DNA from: Sulfurimonas sp.
GTDB taxonomy: Bacteria > Campylobacterota > Campylobacteria > Campylobacterales > Sulfurimonadaceae
Length of the DNA: 64,000 nt
NCBI RefSeq assembly: GCF_018698455.1
Contig: NZ_JABIOQ010000072.1
Span: 1 to 64,000, forward strand
Direction: 5' to 3'
Of the stretch, positions 31,917 to 40,174 are shown piece by piece (the stretch's first letter is position 1; every line of letters starts with the position of its first letter). The notes beneath the pieces were generated by a model, which saw nothing but the letters and a program-made list of their open reading frames with translations, searched no databases and was not told the origin of the DNA. The translations under genes and the position numbers were made by a program.

Positions 31917-34721
31917 ATGTCTAATAAGAATAAAAAAAACTCTAAGATAAACCAGAGAATACGAAAATATTTTGATGATGAACCTTTTGATGTTGGAATT
32001 GAAAGTGTAAGTTCGGAGACCTTAAGTGAACTCTTCGCAGCACTTGGTATCTATGATATCTCACACAATAAAAAATTACTTTTAAAAACTATACGAATGA
32101 TGTGGAGTGAAGCAGAACATTCTGTTCGCCAAAATATCCTCGATTTTTTCCAAAATAATGGAGAAATTTATAAATCAAACCTCCCAAAAAGCACAACTCC
32201 CGATGCTGTTTTAGATAGAGATGACAAGATAGAAATGTTACTCGGAGAACTTGATGTAAGCCATGAAGAGGCAGTACAGTTATATGATGCTTTCTCAACT
32301 ATGCGAAGTAAAAAGATTACCATTGAAAAGATGGAATCAAAACTAACACATATCCGTCATGAACATAAACGCTCCCTCTTAGAAAAAGAGCTAGAGGGAA
32401 ACTTTGACACAGATGATTCTTTTGAGTTTAATGCTTCCATTCTTTATGAGGTTTATGGACAGAGTTTTCACAAAATTGTGACTCTTAACACAAAACCATA
32501 TAGTTTTGAATTTTTAGATAACAACTCATTCGAAGAGATAGTACAAAAAATAGGTGATGATAAACTTCTCGCTACAAAAACTAAACAAGAAAATACTCAA
32601 AAATTTACAGAGCAGCTACATTCACCACATGCTTACCTCACAACAAAACAAATAATAGATGCCCTGCGGTCAAGTCCTCCAAAGTCGCGATTTTCTCATC
32701 CTAGAATAGGAGAGAAAGTTCTTAAAGAGATAGTAATGGCAAAGTTAGAAGTGTCGCGTTTAGAACTTCATGAGGAAGAACTTTTACTTATTGTTGATGA
32801 ATCTATAACTCTTCCATACTCAGAGCAAAAGCTTCCTTATAATTTGGAATTACACATAGAATTAGAAGGACTTCTGGAAGAGATTTGGAATGCTGAGCGT
32901 TTTAACTTTGACACTGTATTAGCAGAGCTAAAAGCAGAAGAAGAAAAAGAGTTCTTGCGCTCTTTGGAATCTTTAATAGAGGACTGTACTAAGTATACGG
33001 CACTCTTATATTTAAGTGATGAGGAGCTACATGTCAGAGTCTATGAGTTTTTACTTGACCTTATGCCTCATGGACTCTCCCTAACTCCTAAGATGCATAA
33101 AAAGATTACCAGAAGATTTGTGTATTCCATTTCTGAACTACTTATAAAAAAACAACGCCAAGAATTACTTGCTCGAACTATTCGTGACTTTAAAAACCTC
33201 TTTCCAATGGCTAGAGAGATGCGAAGAAAACTTACTCTTCACATAGGACCAACTAACAGTGGTAAAACATATACGGCGATGAAGAAGTTAGAAGAAGCAG
33301 ATACTGGTTACTATCTTGCACCTCTTCGTTTACTCGCACTTGAAGGCTATGAGACACTCAAAGCAAAGGGCATCGAGAGTTCACTTATAACAGGTGAAGA
33401 ACAAATACTCGATGACGAGGCTACACATATTAGCTCGACCATAGAGATGCTAAACTTTGAAGTCGATGTTGATGTTTGTGTTATAGATGAAGTACAGATG
33501 ATAGATGACCGTGATAGAGGTTGGGCTTGGGCAAACGCCATCATAGGAACACCTGCTAAAGAGATTATTATGACGGGGTCTATTAATTCAAAAGAGGCCA
33601 TTATAGCATTAGCTGAGTACCTTGGTGAAGAGTTAGAAATAATAGAATTTGAACGTAAAAATCCACTTACACTTTTAGAAGAACCAACAAAAGCCTCAGA
33701 GGTAAAACCGGGAACCGCCATCATCGCGTTTAGTAGAAAAGACGTACTAAGGCTCAAACAAAACTTTTCATCTAACTTTAGTGTGAGTGTTGTTTATGGA
33801 AATCTTTCTCCAGAAGTGAGACGTGAAGAAGCACGGCGTTTTCGTGAGGGTGAAACCGAAATACTTATAGCTACAGATGCTATTGCTATGGGAATGAACC
33901 TACCTATAAAAACCATACTCTTTTCTAAGGCTGAAAAGTTTGACGGTATAACACAAAGAAGCCTTATGCCATCAGAAGTACATCAAATTGCTGGTCGTGC
34001 TGGACGGTATGGACTAAGCGAAGAGGGATATGTAGGTGCATTAAATGAAGAAGCCCTCAAAATAGTCAAGAAAAACTTTTATAAAGAAGCAAAAACAATA
34101 ACTATTCCCTTTAAGGTGATGGCAAATTTAGAACATATAAAACTTGTGAGTAAAATACTTGAAGAGAACTCTCTTGAGGTAATTCTAAGTTTCTTTGTAG
34201 AAAACATGGAATTTAATGGTCCTTTTTATGCCTCAGGTTTAAGTGATATGCTGGAGGCTTCAAGGATTGTTGATACTTATGATTTAGACATAGCAACTAA
34301 GTATCATCTTGCTTGTGCTCCGTTGACACTGAAATCCCCTTATATTGTAGAGGCTTATGAGAGTTATATTTTTTCCCTGCAAAAGCAAGAGAATGTTTAC
34401 TATAATCCCCCTGTGCTTAATAGTGATCATGCAAGAACTACAGATGAACTCTTAAAAGCTGAGGACATGGTAAAAGAGATATCTTTATACCTGTGGCTTA
34501 CTTATAGGTTTGGTGAGAACTTTGTAGATGAGAATAAAGCTCGAGAATATAGAAGTATTTTAAACAAATACATAGGAAGAACACTGCATCAGGCACAACT
34601 TTCTCAGATGTGTAAACTCTGCAGGGCACCTTTGCCATTAAACACAAAGTATGCGATTTGTCAGAACTGTTTTAGAAAGAACTATACACATGGACGAGGA
34701 AGAGGACATTCCTCAAGATAG
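31917..34721 (+). CDS. Suv3-like DExH RNA helicase with zinc-binding tail
   Basis: The helicase core begins near residue 440 with Walker A 'LHIGPTNSGKTYTAMKKL'. It continues with 'YLAPLRLLALEGYE', the DExH-type box 'VCVIDEVQMIDD', 'IIMTGSI', 'VVYGNLSPEVR', 'LIATDAIAMGMNLPI' and 'HQIAGRAGRYG'. This order and the wording of the motifs match the SUPV3L1/Suv3 helicases, best known from mitochondrial RNA degradosomes. An unusual N-terminal region of over 400 mostly helical residues precedes it. The C-terminus ends with a zinc ribbon ('CKLCRAPL', 'CQNCFRK') and a basic RG-rich tail, likely for RNA binding. It is a single-gene unit. Confidence 0.85.
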   Translation: MSNKNKKNSKINQRIRKYFDDEPFDVGIESVSSETLSELFAALGIYDISHNKKLLLKTIRMMWSEAEHSVRQNILDFFQNNGEIYKSNLPKSTTPDAVLDRDDKIEMLLGELDVSHEEAVQLYDAFSTMRSKKITIEKMESKLTHIRHEHKRSLLEKELEGNFDTDDSFEFNASILYEVYGQSFHKIVTLNTKPYSFEFLDNNSFEEIVQKIGDDKLLATKTKQENTQKFTEQLHSPHAYLTTKQIIDALRSSPPKSRFSHPRIGEKVLKEIVMAKLEVSRLELHEEELLLIVDESITLPYSEQKLPYNLELHIELEGLLEEIWNAERFNFDTVLAELKAEEEKEFLRSLESLIEDCTKYTALLYLSDEELHVRVYEFLLDLMPHGLSLTPKMHKKITRRFVYSISELLIKKQRQELLARTIRDFKNLFPMAREMRRKLTLHIGPTNSGKTYTAMKKLEEADTGYYLAPLRLLALEGYETLKAKGIESSLITGEEQILDDEATHISSTIEMLNFEVDVDVCVIDEVQMIDDRDRGWAWANAIIGTPAKEIIMTGSINSKEAIIALAEYLGEELEIIEFERKNPLTLLEEPTKASEVKPGTAIIAFSRKDVLRLKQNFSSNFSVSVVYGNLSPEVRREEARRFREGETEILIATDAIAMGMNLPIKTILFSKAEKFDGITQRSLMPSEVHQIAGRAGRYGLSEEGYVGALNEEALKIVKKNFYKEAKTITIPFKVMANLEHIKLVSKILEENSLEVILSFFVENMEFNGPFYASGLSDMLEASRIVDTYDLDIATKYHLACAPLTLKSPYIVEAYESYIFSLQKQENVYYNPPVLNSDHARTTDELLKAEDMVKEISLYLWLTYRFGENFVDENKAREYRSILNKYIGRTLHQAQLSQMCKLCRAPLPLNTKYAICQNCFRKNYTHGRGRGHSSR

Positions 34722-34731
34722 AGTGCTTCTT

Positions 34732-35460
34732 TTAAGCCATATAAACTATAAGTTCTAGGGCATCTAAAAGTTCTTGGTTCGTTATGGAATCTCTCGAAGC
34801 TATAGCCAAGGAAGCACCTGTCCCATTTCTATCTCTTAGCCCATGATGAGATTCTTTTACACTTTGTATATCTGCACCACTTAAGTCAAAATCTGTATAG
34901 AGTGCCTTTGGATGGTAACTTAGTTTAGCAAGTATAGTTTTTAGGGCTATACTTTTTGCTGAGTAAGATGTTGTAGCTAACGTTATGTTATCACTCTTTA
35001 TGCGCATGAGAACTTCTTCTCTTAGATTGTCTGCTATGAGCAGGACTATTGCCATTTCCTCTGCACCACTTAAGACTATATGAAACCTTCTCGATGCTTC
35101 GAGAATAAAACCAGCATAAAAGATAAGTTCTTTATATTTGAAATTGTCTAATTCATTAAAGTTGCTTGTAGACTCATCGTCTTGTGTTTGCAAAGAGATA
35201 CTAAGTGCAACAAATGTGCCTTTTAGCTCATATGACATTCCAAGATCCATCCCTTTACGCAATATAGTCTTCGAATCTAAGCCATTAAGAATTTCAGGTT
35301 TAAAGAGCTCTATATGGCTAAAAGGATTTAAGCTGTGGAGTGCCTGAGTTATAAGCCCAGAGGTGTTTACTGTGGAGTTATCAAAAGTGTCGGTAATGAG
35401 GTCACAATTACCAGAGATAAGTGAATCTTCTTCAGAAGTGAAGAGATTATAACTTGTCAT
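34732..35460 (-). CDS. CobT-like protein, shortened and probably inactive
   Basis: Parts of this 242-residue protein align by eye with the TIGR00303 CobT homologues. 'SKTILRKGMDLGMSYELKGTFVAL' fits the segment before the active site, 'RFHIVLSGAEEMAIVLLIADNL' fits the 'VILAGGTQMSAVLAV' strand, and the end ('DFDLSGADIQSVKESHHGLRDRNGTGASLAI') fits 'KGSVKEGVGAGG'. The glycine/threonine-rich 'PGGTTTALG' section and the glycine-rich loop are missing or changed, so phosphoribosyltransferase activity is doubtful. CobT activates the lower ligand of cobamides. It overlaps the ribbon-helix-helix gene by four bases at the end of a TonB-receptor operon, which suggests a cobamide-related binding or regulatory role. 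Confidence 0.5.
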   Translation of the reverse strand: MTSYNLFTSEEDSLISGNCDLITDTFDNSTVNTSGLITQALHSLNPFSHIELFKPEILNGLDSKTILRKGMDLGMSYELKGTFVALSISLQTQDDESTSNFNELDNFKYKELIFYAGFILEASRRFHIVLSGAEEMAIVLLIADNLREEVLMRIKSDNITLATTSYSAKSIALKTILAKLSYHPKALYTDFDLSGADIQSVKESHHGLRDRNGTGASLAIASRDSITNQELLDALELIVYMA

Positions 35461-35663
35461 ATCTCTATATCATCCCAAAACTCATTAAAGTCTAAGTTTG
35501 TCATCGCATTTTCATCATTAGTACCTTTTTGGCTTAACTCTTCTTGGACTTTTATAAAGTAGAGTTCGAGTGCTGCGTTTATCATAGTAGATTCATCTTT
35601 GTTTAAAATCTCTTTGAACTCGGCTAGTCTTTCATAATTATTTTGATTAATTGTTATATTCAT
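35457..35663 (-). CDS. Ribbon-helix-helix-type small protein
   Basis: The reading 'MNITINQNNYERLAEFKEILNKDESTMINAALELYFIKVQEEL' has one beta strand then two helices, as in Arc/CopG ribbon-helix-helix DNA-binding proteins. An acidic tail ('LDFNEFWDDIEI') follows. The track begins at 35765 inside the preceding gene; the ATG at 35663, four bases after that gene's stop, is preferred, with 35690 as an alternative. Its end overlaps the CobT-like gene start by four bases. It could regulate the operon or act as an antitoxin-like partner, but no toxin is present. Confidence 0.6.
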   Translation of the reverse strand: MNITINQNNYERLAEFKEILNKDESTMINAALELYFIKVQEELSQKGTNDENAMTNLDFNEFWDDIEI

Positions 35664-35667
35664 AGTG

Positions 35668-36051
35668 TTATTGTACCGTTTTTTTGACATAGGACTTGTT
35701 ATGTGGGATAGTGCAGTCTGTACAGTCTTGATGGATTTTCTTCTCATGTGTAAACTGACCACCATGACCTAAAGAACATTCACTGAAAATAGTGAAACCA
35801 TCTTTTTCATATAAGCCTTCTTCTTTAAAGATGAAGTGAGGACAGGCACAGTGAAAACAGTTGAGGTATTCTACATTATGGCACTTTTTCTTTTCTGCAT
35901 AGAGGAGGCAGAAATTCGGCTCCGTCTCAACCATATTTTCAAAAACAAAGTAATCTATTATTTGCTCTTTAGTGTAGTTCTGTTCTTGGAGTTTAGTAAG
36001 TATGTTGTTATGTTTTTTTTCATGCTCTTTTAGCCAAAAAGTATAAGTCAT
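35668..36051 (-). CDS. Cysteine-rich zinc-binding-like protein (PF04071 type)
   Basis: The 127-residue protein has nine cysteines, most in the middle and end: 'NFCLLYAEKKKCHN', 'LNCFHCACPHFIF', 'SECSLGHGG', and 'HQDCTDCTIPHNKSYV'. The last part matches the 'K-D-C-x-x-C-x-x-P-H' close of the cysteine-rich small domain (PF04071), a presumed metal-binding unit. I recall, without checking, that this domain is found near cobalamin genes. It overlaps the upstream membrane-protein gene by four bases and precedes the ribbon-helix-helix gene, so it belongs to the TonB-receptor operon. A metal- or cofactor-binding role is inferred. Confidence 0.6.
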   Translation of the reverse strand: MTYTFWLKEHEKKHNNILTKLQEQNYTKEQIIDYFVFENMVETEPNFCLLYAEKKKCHNVEYLNCFHCACPHFIFKEEGLYEKDGFTIFSECSLGHGGQFTHEKKIHQDCTDCTIPHNKSYVKKTVQ

Positions 36052-36623
36052 GAGATTCTCTTAAATGATTTTAGAAGATAGTATATAATAGATACTTGAG
36101 ATAAAAGAAGTAAAAAGTGTATAACATATACCTGCGTTTGTTTGTTAGTTATACCAAAGTAGTACTCCAGTAGTTGATAAAAAACATAAGAGATAAGCAT
36201 ACCTAGAAGATACCCTTTTTGTTTAGCCACATCGACTAGCTCTAAAGGTTTAGAGTATTTTAAAAAGAGTGTTTCAGCACGAATGAGAAAAGAGCCAAAA
36301 GTGAAAGTAATTTGATACCCAATATAGATGATAAACGCGGTGCTATATGAGTACGAAAAAAGTAAAAAGTAACTAATAGCCAAGAGTAAAACTATCTCTA
36401 TAAAAAGAGAAATCTTGAAAAAATAATCAATGTTTAAAATCTTATAGTAAAACTTTGCAACAACAAGCATAGCCAGTGCGAGAAAAATCCCACCTAGACT
36501 ATAAACTGATGGTTCTAGTGGAGCATATAATATAAATATACTCCCAACACTTATTCCGAGAAAAAGAGAGTTTAGAAGTTTATACTTTATAAACTCTCTT
36601 ATGTTTAGTTTCATTTTTTTCAT
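36048..36623 (-). CDS. Six-helix membrane protein
   Basis: The 191-residue protein has about six hydrophobic helices ('LLNSLFLGISVGSIFILY', 'GGIFLALAMLVVAKFY', 'ISLFIEIVLLLAISYFLLF', 'YLLGMLISYVFYQLLEYYF', 'YVIHFLLLLSQVSIIYYLL') and short basic loops. This is half the size of an MFS transporter, so it may work as a dimer or as a partner for another component. It sits 7 bases after the TonB-receptor gene and overlaps the cysteine-rich gene by four bases. An inner-membrane step in uptake of the receptor's ligand is the natural guess. No family is recognised. Confidence 0.6.
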   Translation of the reverse strand: MKKMKLNIREFIKYKLLNSLFLGISVGSIFILYAPLEPSVYSLGGIFLALAMLVVAKFYYKILNIDYFFKISLFIEIVLLLAISYFLLFSYSYSTAFIIYIGYQITFTFGSFLIRAETLFLKYSKPLELVDVAKQKGYLLGMLISYVFYQLLEYYFGITNKQTQVYVIHFLLLLSQVSIIYYLLKSFKRIS

Positions 36624-36630
36624 ATACCTT

Positions 36631-38589
36631 CTAGTATTTGAGTTTTAACCCAGCGATGTATGTAGTTGTATAACTAACAGGATAAATTGCATTATCGCGT
36701 ACCCATAAAGCATTTTGTTGGTTAAACAGATTATTTATTTTAGTAAATATTTCCCAATTTTTCTTTTTATAAGTTGCAGATATATCTGTAGAATTAAAAG
36801 CATCTTGTTTTTGAGAAAAATTATTATTAAAGTCCTCTGCTGCAAAAGCTTCTGAACGATAAACTTGTGTTAAAGACAAAGTGGAATTTTTATTTGGTAG
36901 ATAATTTACGATTACTTTTACATTATGATCTGATACACCAGGAAGAGTGTTTCCACTGTAGTCATCACCATTTTCTATTTCCTTATCTATAATTGCTTGA
37001 ACATAATTATAATTTAATACCATATTGAGCTGATTGTTAAGTATATAATTATCATATATATCAAGTCCATATTTATGAGATTTATCAATATTAGTATTTC
37101 TAGAGTTAGTCCAACCCGGATCTGAGTAGTAATAAATTTCATTTTCCATATCAATATAAAAAGTAGAAATTTTAAATTTATTTGTTGCTACAATATGGTT
37201 ATATCCTAAAGTATAGTTATTCGCTTTTGATGGTAGTACATAACCCATGTATCCAGTTGTAGGATTTGTATAGCTAAATAATCTATCTAGTTGTGCTGTT
37301 TGGTAACTACGTGAAAAATTAGTAAATACTGAACTATTCTTATTTAGTTTGTAATTTACTCCAAGTTCAATACCACTAAGATCTTCACTTTCACTGTCAC
37401 CATTAGATTCATTGAATTTCATAATTTCATATCTCAATCCAGCTTTTAGCGTAAATTTATTTTTAGAGTATTCAGACATCAAGTAGATAGCTTGATTATC
37501 TTTCTCCATATTTAGATCTACGTTGGAGCTATTTTCATACTTTAAATCTGCATAAAATCCATCAATACCTACTTTGATAGATAAGTTGTTTGTTGTATAG
37601 TCAAGATATGTATTAAAAGATACATAGTTATAATCACTATGACCAGTGGAACTCCAAGCTGGTAGATCGTAATCAGAATTTTTTATTTCATTTGCAACTT
37701 GAGCACTAAGTGAGATATCATCATTTATAGAGTACTTTACAGAAGAACGTAGAACAGTTGAATCAAACCTTTGAGTAGAATAAGAACTAGCGAAACCACT
37801 GCTAGTTCCCTGTTGTCTAGGATTGTCCTTGTACTCATCTTCTGTCATTGTCCCTGCATAAGTTACATCAGTTGCTGTATTTGTTGCACCTATATTTAAT
37901 GTTAAATCATCTGATAGAGAATATTCTAGATCTATAGATGCAGTAGTAAATTTATTTTCGTCTTTATTCCTATCTGTATCAATTTCTCTTATTCCATCAT
38001 TCTTTTGAGTCTCTCCACTTACACTAACTGATAGCTTTTCCCATTTATGCCCAGCATAAAATGAAGCATCCCTTGTGCCATATGAACCAGCATATAATGA
38101 AACTTCTTTTGTATTGTTTTGTTTAGTAGTTATATTAATGACACCTGCATTGGCACCATCACCTCCGACTACGATTCCGCTAGATTTGATAATTTCTATT
38201 TTTTTGATTGAACTAGGCGATATAGATGCTAATAGTTGAGAAACCATATCTACATTGTTCATCTTTCTCCCATTGATAGTAACAACTATGTTTTGGTATC
38301 CATCAGCAACTCCAAACCCATGTATATCCATTTTTTGTAAAAAAGGATTTCCATATGCTGATGTTGCAAAAACAGAAGTACTTTTATTCAAAAATTCATA
38401 TACATTTTGAACATGAGCTTTCTCTATGTCTTCTTGCGTATAAACTTCTACAGCATCTGTAGAGCTTAATTCATCAGTTTTTATGGCTGTTGAAGTAATG
38501 GCAATTGGAGCAAGTGTTATAGACTGAGTTGCATGTAGTTGGCTTAAAAAAGCACCTAGGAGTAATGATAATTGTATTATTTTTGACAT
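36631..38589 (-). CDS. TonB-dependent outer-membrane receptor
   Basis: The 652-residue protein has a signal peptide ('IQLSLLLGAFLSQLHA') and then a plug domain ('VEVYTQEDIEKAHVQNVYEFLNK', 'VTINGRKMNNVDMVSQLL', 'IEIIKSSGIVVGGDGANAGVINI', about residues 45-155). A 22-strand-type barrel follows, rich in aromatic and polar strands, closing with 'YTTTYIAGLKLKY'. These receptors import scarce ligands such as siderophores, cobamides or metals using energy from TonB. The ligand cannot be read from sequence. The four downstream genes, including a CobT-like one, point towards cobamides. A ribosome site AAGGA precedes the ATG. Confidence 0.88.
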   Translation of the reverse strand: MSKIIQLSLLLGAFLSQLHATQSITLAPIAITSTAIKTDELSSTDAVEVYTQEDIEKAHVQNVYEFLNKSTSVFATSAYGNPFLQKMDIHGFGVADGYQNIVVTINGRKMNNVDMVSQLLASISPSSIKKIEIIKSSGIVVGGDGANAGVINITTKQNNTKEVSLYAGSYGTRDASFYAGHKWEKLSVSVSGETQKNDGIREIDTDRNKDENKFTTASIDLEYSLSDDLTLNIGATNTATDVTYAGTMTEDEYKDNPRQQGTSSGFASSYSTQRFDSTVLRSSVKYSINDDISLSAQVANEIKNSDYDLPAWSSTGHSDYNYVSFNTYLDYTTNNLSIKVGIDGFYADLKYENSSNVDLNMEKDNQAIYLMSEYSKNKFTLKAGLRYEIMKFNESNGDSESEDLSGIELGVNYKLNKNSSVFTNFSRSYQTAQLDRLFSYTNPTTGYMGYVLPSKANNYTLGYNHIVATNKFKISTFYIDMENEIYYYSDPGWTNSRNTNIDKSHKYGLDIYDNYILNNQLNMVLNYNYVQAIIDKEIENGDDYSGNTLPGVSDHNVKVIVNYLPNKNSTLSLTQVYRSEAFAAEDFNNNFSQKQDAFNSTDISATYKKKNWEIFTKINNLFNQQNALWVRDNAIYPVSYTTTYIAGLKLKY

Positions 38590-38634
38590 AGTAGTCCTTA
38601 ATATATTTATGTTTTTTATATGAGTTTAAATATT

Positions 38635-38790
38635 TTAAGAAGAGGGTGGAGAAGCTATTTTAATTGTGAGAGGTTTACCATCTAATGTGTATACAGAACA
38701 ACCCTGTGCAATTATCTTAGTTAAAGATATATAGGCTTGTATCGCTGCTAGGGAAAAGTAGTTTTTTCCAAAACCTTTAGGTATATGCAC
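38635..38790 (-). CDS. Small ORF upstream of the TonB receptor
   Basis: A GTG-initiated frame of 51 residues, too short for the track, reads 'HIPKGFGKNYFSLAAIQAYISLTKIIAQGCSVYTLDGKPLTIKIASPPSS' in parts, with protein-like composition and a single Cys. It ends 46 bases before the receptor ATG on the same strand, and the frame closes upstream at 38817. It may be a real small gene leading the operon or the tail of a lost gene. No family is recognised. Confidence 0.35.
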   Translation of the reverse strand: MHIPKGFGKNYFSLAAIQAYISLTKIIAQGCSVYTLDGKPLTIKIASPPSS

Positions 38791-38845
38791 GAGTTCTCTT
38801 TTGTTTTTTTCGAATTATAACCAAAATAGATGTTAAAATACTTTT

Positions 38846-40174
38846 ATGAAACTTTCCCACTTAAAACAAATAGTAAACTACTTACAAGATTTTAAAAAAA
38901 TATCGGCTGTTCATAGAGTTAGCGATACCATTATCAAAATAGTGTTTGACAAAATCGATGCTATTTACTTCAATATGACTCGTTCAAACTCTAGTATGTT
39001 TAAGTGCGAAGAGTATCCGCGTTCAAAGCTTTATAATGCTCCTTTTGATGTCATTATGGCAAAACGCTTTAATCGTGCAAATATCTTAAATATAGAACTT
39101 TTAAATGGCGATAAAATTATTCGTCTTAAGACTTCAATGACATCGGTATATAAAGAAGAGACAACTTACCTACAAATAGAATTTACAGGTAAATATACAA
39201 ATATCATCATACTAGATGAGGAAAATGTAGTTCTTGAGGCACTCCGTCATGTAGACCTTTTCTCTTCTTTTCGTGAGGTTAGAGTAGGGCAAGCTCTTCT
39301 TGACGTACCCCAAGCTCCTTTTGTTGCTAAAGAGTATCCACTTGATAATGTAGAAGTATTTTTGTATGAGGCATATTCTCGTGAACAAGATGCAAAACTG
39401 AGTAATCTTAAAACCCAAAAAACAGTACTTTTAAATAAAAAACTAAAAAAACTAAAAAAACTCTATGAGCAACTAGATTCCCAAGCTGACTTGGAAAAGA
39501 TGGCTAAAGAACAAGAGCATTATGGAAATCTAGTTTTATCCAATGCGAACACTATTAAACCTTATGCAAAGATACTAAAGCTATATGATTATGTAGAAGA
39601 AAAAGAGATAGAACTCACTATAGAAAAACCATGTCCAACAGCTTTTATGATAAGTAATATGCTCTTCTCTAAGAGTAAAAAAGCAAAACAAAGAGCGAAA
39701 CATCTTCATATTGAAGAAGAATCGCTACTCTCAAAAATAGAGCATCTAAAGTTATTTATAAGTACGGTTGAAATGGCTCAAGATGTTGCTAAAATAGAAC
39801 TGCTTTTCCCTAAAAAAGTACAAGCGAAAAAGATTAAAGTAAATGATTCTGTAGAAGTTTTCTGGATTGAGGGCTATAAAGTACAGCTTGGTAAGAATGA
39901 AAAAGGAAATATTGAGCTACTTCAAAATGCAAGAGCTAAGGATATTTGGATTCATTTAAAAGATAGACCATCCGCTCACGTTATCATTACAACAGATAAG
40001 CAAAACCTCCCTATGAATGTGATGCAAAGTGCCGCAAGACTCTGTGTGGATTTTACTACAACTACAAAAGATCGCTATTTGGTCGATTATACTCCACGAA
40101 GAGAAGTAACTATTCAAAATGGTGCAAATGTACTGTATAATAAGTATAAGACCATAGAGATAGATACTCGCTAA
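38846..40174 (+). CDS. NFACT family protein (RqcH/fibronectin-binding-like)
   Basis: The N-terminal NFACT-N part has 'FDKIDAIYFNMTRSNSSMF' and 'SLFREV'-like 'LFSSFREVRVGQALLDVP'. A central coiled coil runs about residues 185-220 ('NLKTQKTVLLNKKLKKLKKLYEQL'). The C-terminal NFACT-R part has 'DIWIHLKDRPSAHVII' and 'LCVDFTTTTKDRYLVDYTPRREV'. RqcH members bind the large ribosomal subunit and add alanine tails to stalled nascent chains. Length (442) is shorter than Bacillus RqcH (about 570), as in other Campylobacterota, so full activity is uncertain. A small acidic protein gene follows by 19 bases. Confidence 0.82.
   Translation: MKLSHLKQIVNYLQDFKKISAVHRVSDTIIKIVFDKIDAIYFNMTRSNSSMFKCEEYPRSKLYNAPFDVIMAKRFNRANILNIELLNGDKIIRLKTSMTSVYKEETTYLQIEFTGKYTNIIILDEENVVLEALRHVDLFSSFREVRVGQALLDVPQAPFVAKEYPLDNVEVFLYEAYSREQDAKLSNLKTQKTVLLNKKLKKLKKLYEQLDSQADLEKMAKEQEHYGNLVLSNANTIKPYAKILKLYDYVEEKEIELTIEKPCPTAFMISNMLFSKSKKAKQRAKHLHIEEESLLSKIEHLKLFISTVEMAQDVAKIELLFPKKVQAKKIKVNDSVEVFWIEGYKVQLGKNEKGNIELLQNARAKDIWIHLKDRPSAHVIITTDKQNLPMNVMQSAARLCVDFTTTTKDRYLVDYTPRREVTIQNGANVLYNKYKTIEIDTR

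Follow-up and report, generated by a model that had tools for sequence, protein, structure and literature searches.

A TonB-receptor operon in the Campylobacterota encoding TM6, a candidate inner-membrane cobamide importer, and a catalytically dead CobT homologue

A 64,000-nucleotide (nt) stretch of contig NZ_JABIOQ010000072.1 (positions 1 to 64,000; hereafter, the window) carries on its minus strand six tightly packed open reading frames (ORFs). In the order in which they are read, these encode a 51-amino acid (aa) product with a GTG start (38635..38790), a TonB-dependent outer-membrane receptor (36631..38589), a 191-aa six-helix membrane protein designated TM6 (36048..36623), a Cys-rich protein (35668..36051), a 68-aa ribbon-helix-helix (RHH)-like protein (35457..35663) and CobT-short, a truncated homologue of archaeal-type CobT (34732..35460). 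Gaps of 45 nt and 7 nt separate the receptor gene from the small ORF before it and the TM6 gene behind it, the genes for TM6 and the Cys-rich protein overlap by 4 nt, and the RHH-like gene follows the latter after 4 nt and overlaps the CobT-like gene by another 4 nt. A longer RHH-like ORF, starting at 35765, overlaps the Cys-rich gene, and the ATG at 35663 is backed by relatives. This layout agrees in coordinates, overlaps and gaps with the five-gene block and preceding small ORF described in an initial annotation made from the sequence alone. The order small ORF-TonB-TM6-Cys-CobT-short is repeated in genome G177 (locus L032) and the order small ORF-TonB-TM6-Cys-RHH in G153 (L082), and because of this repetition the gene set is not a chance arrangement. 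Conservation of the gene set in relatives is thereby supported, although the RHH gene is missing in G177.

The most interesting gene of the block, which the initial annotation had passed over, is that of TM6, a candidate inner-membrane cobamide importer by its genomic context, its exclusivity with BtuC and its predicted fold. We followed its distribution in a family survey of 200 genomes and a phylum survey of 298 genomes from 58 genera, in which BtuC orthologues were separated from FecC-type paralogues by a wide bit-score gap. TM6 is present in 54 of the family genomes and, across the Campylobacterota, in 70 genomes from 24 genera, and in most loci it lies directly behind a TonB receptor gene. 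Orthologous BtuC is present in 104 family genomes and coincides with TM6 in none of the 200 (Fisher, 1e-22); TM6 likewise never coincides there with CobS (4e-24) or CbiB (1e-13), although these p-values overstate independence because the genomes are related. A sounder argument comes from three genera of mixed state, within which TM6 and BtuC exclude each other (19 vs 60 genomes in g1, 22 vs 17 in g14 and 4 vs 3 in g16), together with an exchange of the two systems at one locus. Outside the family, 61 intact TM6 and 19 BtuC show zero overlap (p 0.009). Furthermore, MetH-like and/or BtuR-like genes stand near TM6 in several loci of other families (L143, L144, L151, L153 and L159), with domains checked for one gene each, a BtuR of L143 and a MetH of L144.

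The locus exchange is seen within a single genus, where G443 has TonB-TM6-Cys and G403 has TonB-BtuF-BtuD-BtuC-CobT-CobU-CobD-CobQ-CbiB-kinase-CobS-CobC-Cys. The flanks of the two loci correspond: identity is 98% for a 397-aa gene on one side and 76% and 80% for the two genes downstream, while the Cys-rich proteins are 82% identical and the receptors 42%. A 43-residue TM6 match in G403 was set aside, as tblastn at the site of the exchange did not confirm it and it may be due to chance. A 569-aa ORF of G403 (L166:7586-9295) consists of a C-terminal CobT part and a BluB-like N-terminal part, and is likely to encode a BluB-CobT fusion. In G352, TonB-TM6 and the Cys-rich gene lie beside a complete assembly set, with BtuFDC absent within the 16 kb region examined, and TM6 therefore tracks the loss of BtuFDC rather than that of CobS. 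An association with CobS loss does not hold generally and was rejected, because TM6 and CobS are found together in several genomes outside the family and G352 combines TM6 with a complete assembly set. These gene arrangements indicate that TM6 stands in for BtuFDC specifically at the receptor locus. No description of TM6 was found in literature on half-size MFS proteins, B12 auxotrophy in Sulfurimonas and alternative B12 transporters, in a search that reached few subscription journals.

The AlphaFold 2 model of TM6 (predicted local distance difference test score [pLDDT] 92) matches, in Foldseek searches of the PDB, one half of major facilitator superfamily (MFS) carriers such as LmrP (6t1z), NorC, VMAT and FLVCR2. 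The model appears to fit one six-helix half of these proteins, whereas MFS carriers hold 12 helices in one chain and TM6, at half that length, has no notable Pfam MFS match: Pfam provides no family for TM6, and one of 42 members gives a single weak MFS match at chance level. Among the invariant residues are E76 in helix 3 and, around the turn between helices 4 and 5, R115, E117 and D131. TM6 may thus be a half-size MFS-like protein that would form a 12-helix carrier by homodimerisation and be driven by an ion gradient. BtuM, a small protein that transports B12 through the inner membrane in alpha-, beta- and gammaproteobacteria, resembles it in mass (~22 kDa), in its six helices, in its link to BtuB and in its occurrence in B12 auxotrophs without BtuCDF (PMC6072759). 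In contrast, BtuM has the S-component fold of energy-coupling factor (ECF) transporters and an invariant cobalt-ligating cysteine, while no cysteine is invariant among 42 aligned TM6 proteins and the window copy contains none at all. The top 50 PDB matches of TM6 are MFS-type carriers with no BtuM or ECF S-component fold among them, and the identification of TM6 as BtuM was rejected on both fold and missing cysteine. With the ATP-binding cassette transporter BtuCDF, TM6 shares a presumed job and a gene position behind the receptor, but it has no ATPase, no binding protein and an unrelated fold.

Judged by its barrel (PF00593, 1.1e-30) and plug (PF07715, 8.2e-14) domains, the product of 36631..38589 is certainly a TonB-dependent receptor, as had been claimed. 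Related receptors head BtuF-CobT-CobU-CobS-CobC loci, a context that points to a probable cobamide receptor of BtuB-like type. Like BtuB, it combines barrel and plug in a cobamide locus; unlike BtuB, it reaches 54.3 bits (8.6e-15) against the TonB-B12 model TIGR01779, far under the cut-off of 599.7. Cobamide loci consistently include the gene for the Cys-rich protein, which lies beside TM6 and also beside full cobamide clusters. Its proposed likeness to PF04071 persists as a distant, sub-threshold resemblance: the window protein scores 13.3 bits (E 0.08) and four of five relatives tested give 3e-4 to 5e-3 (up to 21 bits), all short of the cut-off of 27 bits. For the RHH-like protein, the assignment made in the initial annotation follows a pattern in the sequence, and no CopG/RHH profile or structure match was obtained. 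The protein is conserved in four relatives (53-57% identity, C-terminal ENAMTNLDFDEFW), where it is likewise encoded in cobamide loci, and is possibly a regulator.

The by-eye assignment of the last gene to CobT was borne out by profile matches (NF003372, 1.5e-9; TIGR00303, 9.6e-4, under its cut-off) and by an AlphaFold model (pLDDT 91.5, predicted TM-score 0.90) whose best Foldseek matches in the PDB are MjCobT (6pt8, 2.2e-10) and P. horikoshii CobT, with E-values from 2e-10 to 1e-6 for these matches. CobT-short is a genuine homologue of the MjCobT family, the archaeal/cyanobacterial type of CobT, and shares its fold, but is ~110 residues shorter than its full-length relatives and has lost the active site. 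In MjCobT, a nicotinate mononucleotide (NaMN):base phosphoribosyltransferase, Asp52 acts as general base and further contacts are provided by E150, by G154/T156 (ribose-phosphate) and by T240/Q241 (carboxylate) (PMC9561151). CobT-short has the base-pocket segment with Asp52 (full-length residues 31-60) deleted, E150 replaced by I, the GTTTA block containing G154/T156 missing, as the initial annotation had observed for the Gly/Thr-rich section, and GGTQM changed to GAEEM, with E/E at T240/Q241. D52, E150, T156, T240 and Q241 are retained in full-length relatives outside the TM6 group, and D52 in all full-length relatives aligned. With general base, phosphate block and NaMN contacts deleted or replaced, CobT-short is therefore not an enzyme.

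CobT homologues are common in the family and nearly all measure ~350 aa, as against 242 aa in the window. Shortened forms are found in the window's genome (G000) and G177, in G183, in G141 and in genus g10; in all eight genomes concerned TM6 is present and CobS, BtuC and CbiB are missing, and many of their relatives have no CobT gene. A single clade for all short forms was rejected (approximately unbiased test, p 6e-42), while the four g1 forms as one clade were not (p 0.33). The g10 forms thus arose separately from the others, and CobT was truncated at least twice, probably more often. The CobT of G083 is intermediate, being of full length with its motifs lost. Full-length CobT is also kept in genomes that have TM6 and lack CobS, BtuC and CbiB (L082, L083, L084 and L095, of G153, G125, G136 and G152), and the tested active-site positions are intact in G125, G152 and G153. 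The ratio of nonsynonymous to synonymous substitution rates (dN/dS) of the short forms in g10 is 0.32-0.42, significantly less than 1 (p 4e-4 to 2e-6); the receptor gives 0.08-0.15, TM6 0.11 and pairs of full-length CobT 0.09. The window and G177 copies share the derived motif GAE[ED]M, lie at a dN of 0.5 from each other and both have open frames, whereas none of 800 frames stayed open when that drift was simulated neutrally. Full-length residues 211-270 are still 73% identical; identity in the remainder has fallen to roughly a third. We read CobT-short as a folded non-enzyme under relaxed purifying selection, either on its way out or kept for a minor role.

A likely picture of the ancestral locus is offered by G099 (L038), in which the small ORF and TonB receptor are followed by BtuF, CobT, CobU, CobS, CobC, BtuD, BtuC, BluB, a kinase-like gene, CobD and CobQ, with CbiB slightly further on; Cys-rich and RHH-like genes are also present in full cobamide loci. 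The operon in the window is flanked by an SUV3-like helicase gene (31917-34721) and an NFACT-like gene (38846-40174), both recurrent synteny anchors across the family. CobT-short adjoins the helicase gene, near which full-length CobT lies in several relatives, and is for that reason most likely an inherited gene that has kept its original position. CobS (PF02654), CbiB and CobQ were not found in the window's genome, nor was any BtuC-like protein at 1e-10, while MetH is present; the genome thus appears to need cobamides and to be unable to finish making them. In other genomes the cobyric acid synthase CobQ (TIGR00313) has been retained, often as part of the TonB-TM6-Cys operon (L083, L084, L096, L099, L107, L034 and others), where its product should be useless because those genomes lack CbiB and CobS. 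The BtuR/CobO adenosyltransferase PF02572 was dropped as an uninformative marker: it is present in one of 28 genomes of family f1 and absent from CobS-containing ones too, so that another type of adenosyltransferase must serve, or none is needed.

In the stretch that separates the small ORF from the divergent NFACT-like gene, a putative -10 element of the operon (TATAAT, 38814..38819, minus strand) was read from the sequence; it scores under the cut-off of a simple promoter scan, and several relatives have a TATAAT-like sequence at this position. Control by a cobalamin riboswitch was rejected, as Rfam searches upstream of the operon in the window and two relatives gave no match at the gathering threshold or at E 5. 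The 51-aa small ORF is a candidate leader peptide or small protein with a conserved N-terminus, PKGFGKNYFSLAAIQA, and a C-terminal SPP. A copy of the N-terminal motif precedes the receptor in nearly all family receptor loci examined, and SPP is found in 43 of 44 copies, as a rule close to the end; the middle is variable, and the total length ranges from ~50 to 125 aa. An RNA element was rejected as the main cause of this conservation, because differences in the PKGFGKNYFSLAAIQA region across the family are mostly at third positions and because, in other families, a peptide with the same N-terminus forms, in frame, the beginning of the receptor protein itself.

Taken together, these results make it probable that the block is a cobamide (B12) import operon of a B12 auxotroph of the Campylobacterota, probably Sulfurimonas, in which TM6 provides the inner-membrane step and the CobT-like protein is a non-catalytic remnant, and they support the cobamide-linked uptake suggested in the initial annotation. 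The TonB receptor would bring the cobamide across the outer membrane; its passage through the inner membrane would fall to TM6, probably as a homodimer, instead of BtuFDC, and the cobamide would serve the methionine synthase MetH, with the Cys-rich protein as a conserved partner. CobT-short would derive from the full-length CobT encoded in an ancestral receptor-BtuF-CobT-CobU-CobS-CobC-BtuDC locus, its active site lost after the loss of nucleotide-loop assembly and its fold persisting under selection that is relaxed but detectable. Several observations weigh against this account. Shared ancestry is not accounted for in the Fisher values, incomplete metagenome-assembled genomes are among those surveyed (many complete ones agree), and other genes separate receptor and TM6 in a few loci (e.g. 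L085 and L092). The E-value of the half-MFS match is weak (0.024, with probability 1.00 and TM 0.62 for the first match). Nor is the exclusivity absolute: in the Arcobacter-like genomes G250, G389, G417 and G429, TM6 is accompanied by a separate cobamide cluster that includes a distant BtuC of its own, and the rule therefore concerns inherited BtuC. In G250 the additional, divergent biosynthesis cluster (L163) has its own BtuC, BtuD and BtuF-like genes. Neither TM6 nor orthologous BtuC is present in 42 of the 200 family genomes, a finding that, with the assignment of function from context and a size half that of an MFS carrier, would also fit TM6 as a receptor accessory or a mover of another substrate, such as cobalt, with B12 imported by another protein. 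We consider this unlikely, given that TM6 replaces BtuFDC at the same locus, that the two exclude each other in three genera and that the window's own genome yielded no BtuC-like protein at 1e-10.

A different substrate for receptor and TM6 alike (pyrroloquinoline quinone, a siderophore or haem), with B12 genes nearby through history only, is suggested by PqqU/YncD, the nearest solved structure to the receptor, whose model (1.3e-17) slightly outscores the B12 model, both being far under their cut-offs. The position of related receptors before BtuF-CobT-CobU-CobS loci and, in other families, in the neighbourhood of MetH and BtuR leaves this hardly plausible. The initial annotation had seen in the CobT-like protein a possible sensor or carrier that binds a cobamide or its lower ligand, and retention in an uptake operon, a modelled fold and a conserved central segment would suit a protein binding base, ribotide or corrinoid. 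However, the ligands of CobT enzymes are NaMN and a free base and not cobamides (PMC9561151), CobT is not known to bind corrinoids, the base pocket and the phosphate and NaMN contacts are deleted or replaced, short CobT is confined to genomes without CobS, BtuC and CbiB, and most TM6 loci do without it; we regard such a role as very improbable. A serious possibility, if a little short of an even one, is that the operon imports cobamides as outlined and that CobT-short is simply decaying without function. Repeated truncation, the motif loss in the full-length CobT of G083, a dN/dS ~4x that of full-length CobT and the missing gene in many genomes with TM6 speak for it, whereas a dN/dS significantly below 1 after truncation, the frames kept open in the window and G177, the conservation of residues 211-270 and the confident fold argue for some remaining constraint. 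A broader proposal extends the import reading: TM6 would be an undescribed half-size MFS-like family importing cobamides as homodimers and the standard inner-membrane B12 transporter of much of the Campylobacterota, and the conserved KGFxxxYFSLxAIxA...SPP small ORF would be a leader peptide controlling the operon in place of a riboswitch. We hold this combination possible but doubtful.

As a B12 uptake operon with a decayed CobT the locus is ordinary, and its real interest lies in TM6. It also lets the stepwise loss of a biosynthetic pathway be followed across related genomes, in which CobT is found intact, with dead motifs, truncated or not at all. The inner-membrane B12 transporter is unidentified in many B12-dependent bacteria, BtuCDF being predicted in only about half of auxotrophs (PMC6072759), and TM6 is, on strong comparative evidence, a concrete candidate B12 importer for much of one phylum.

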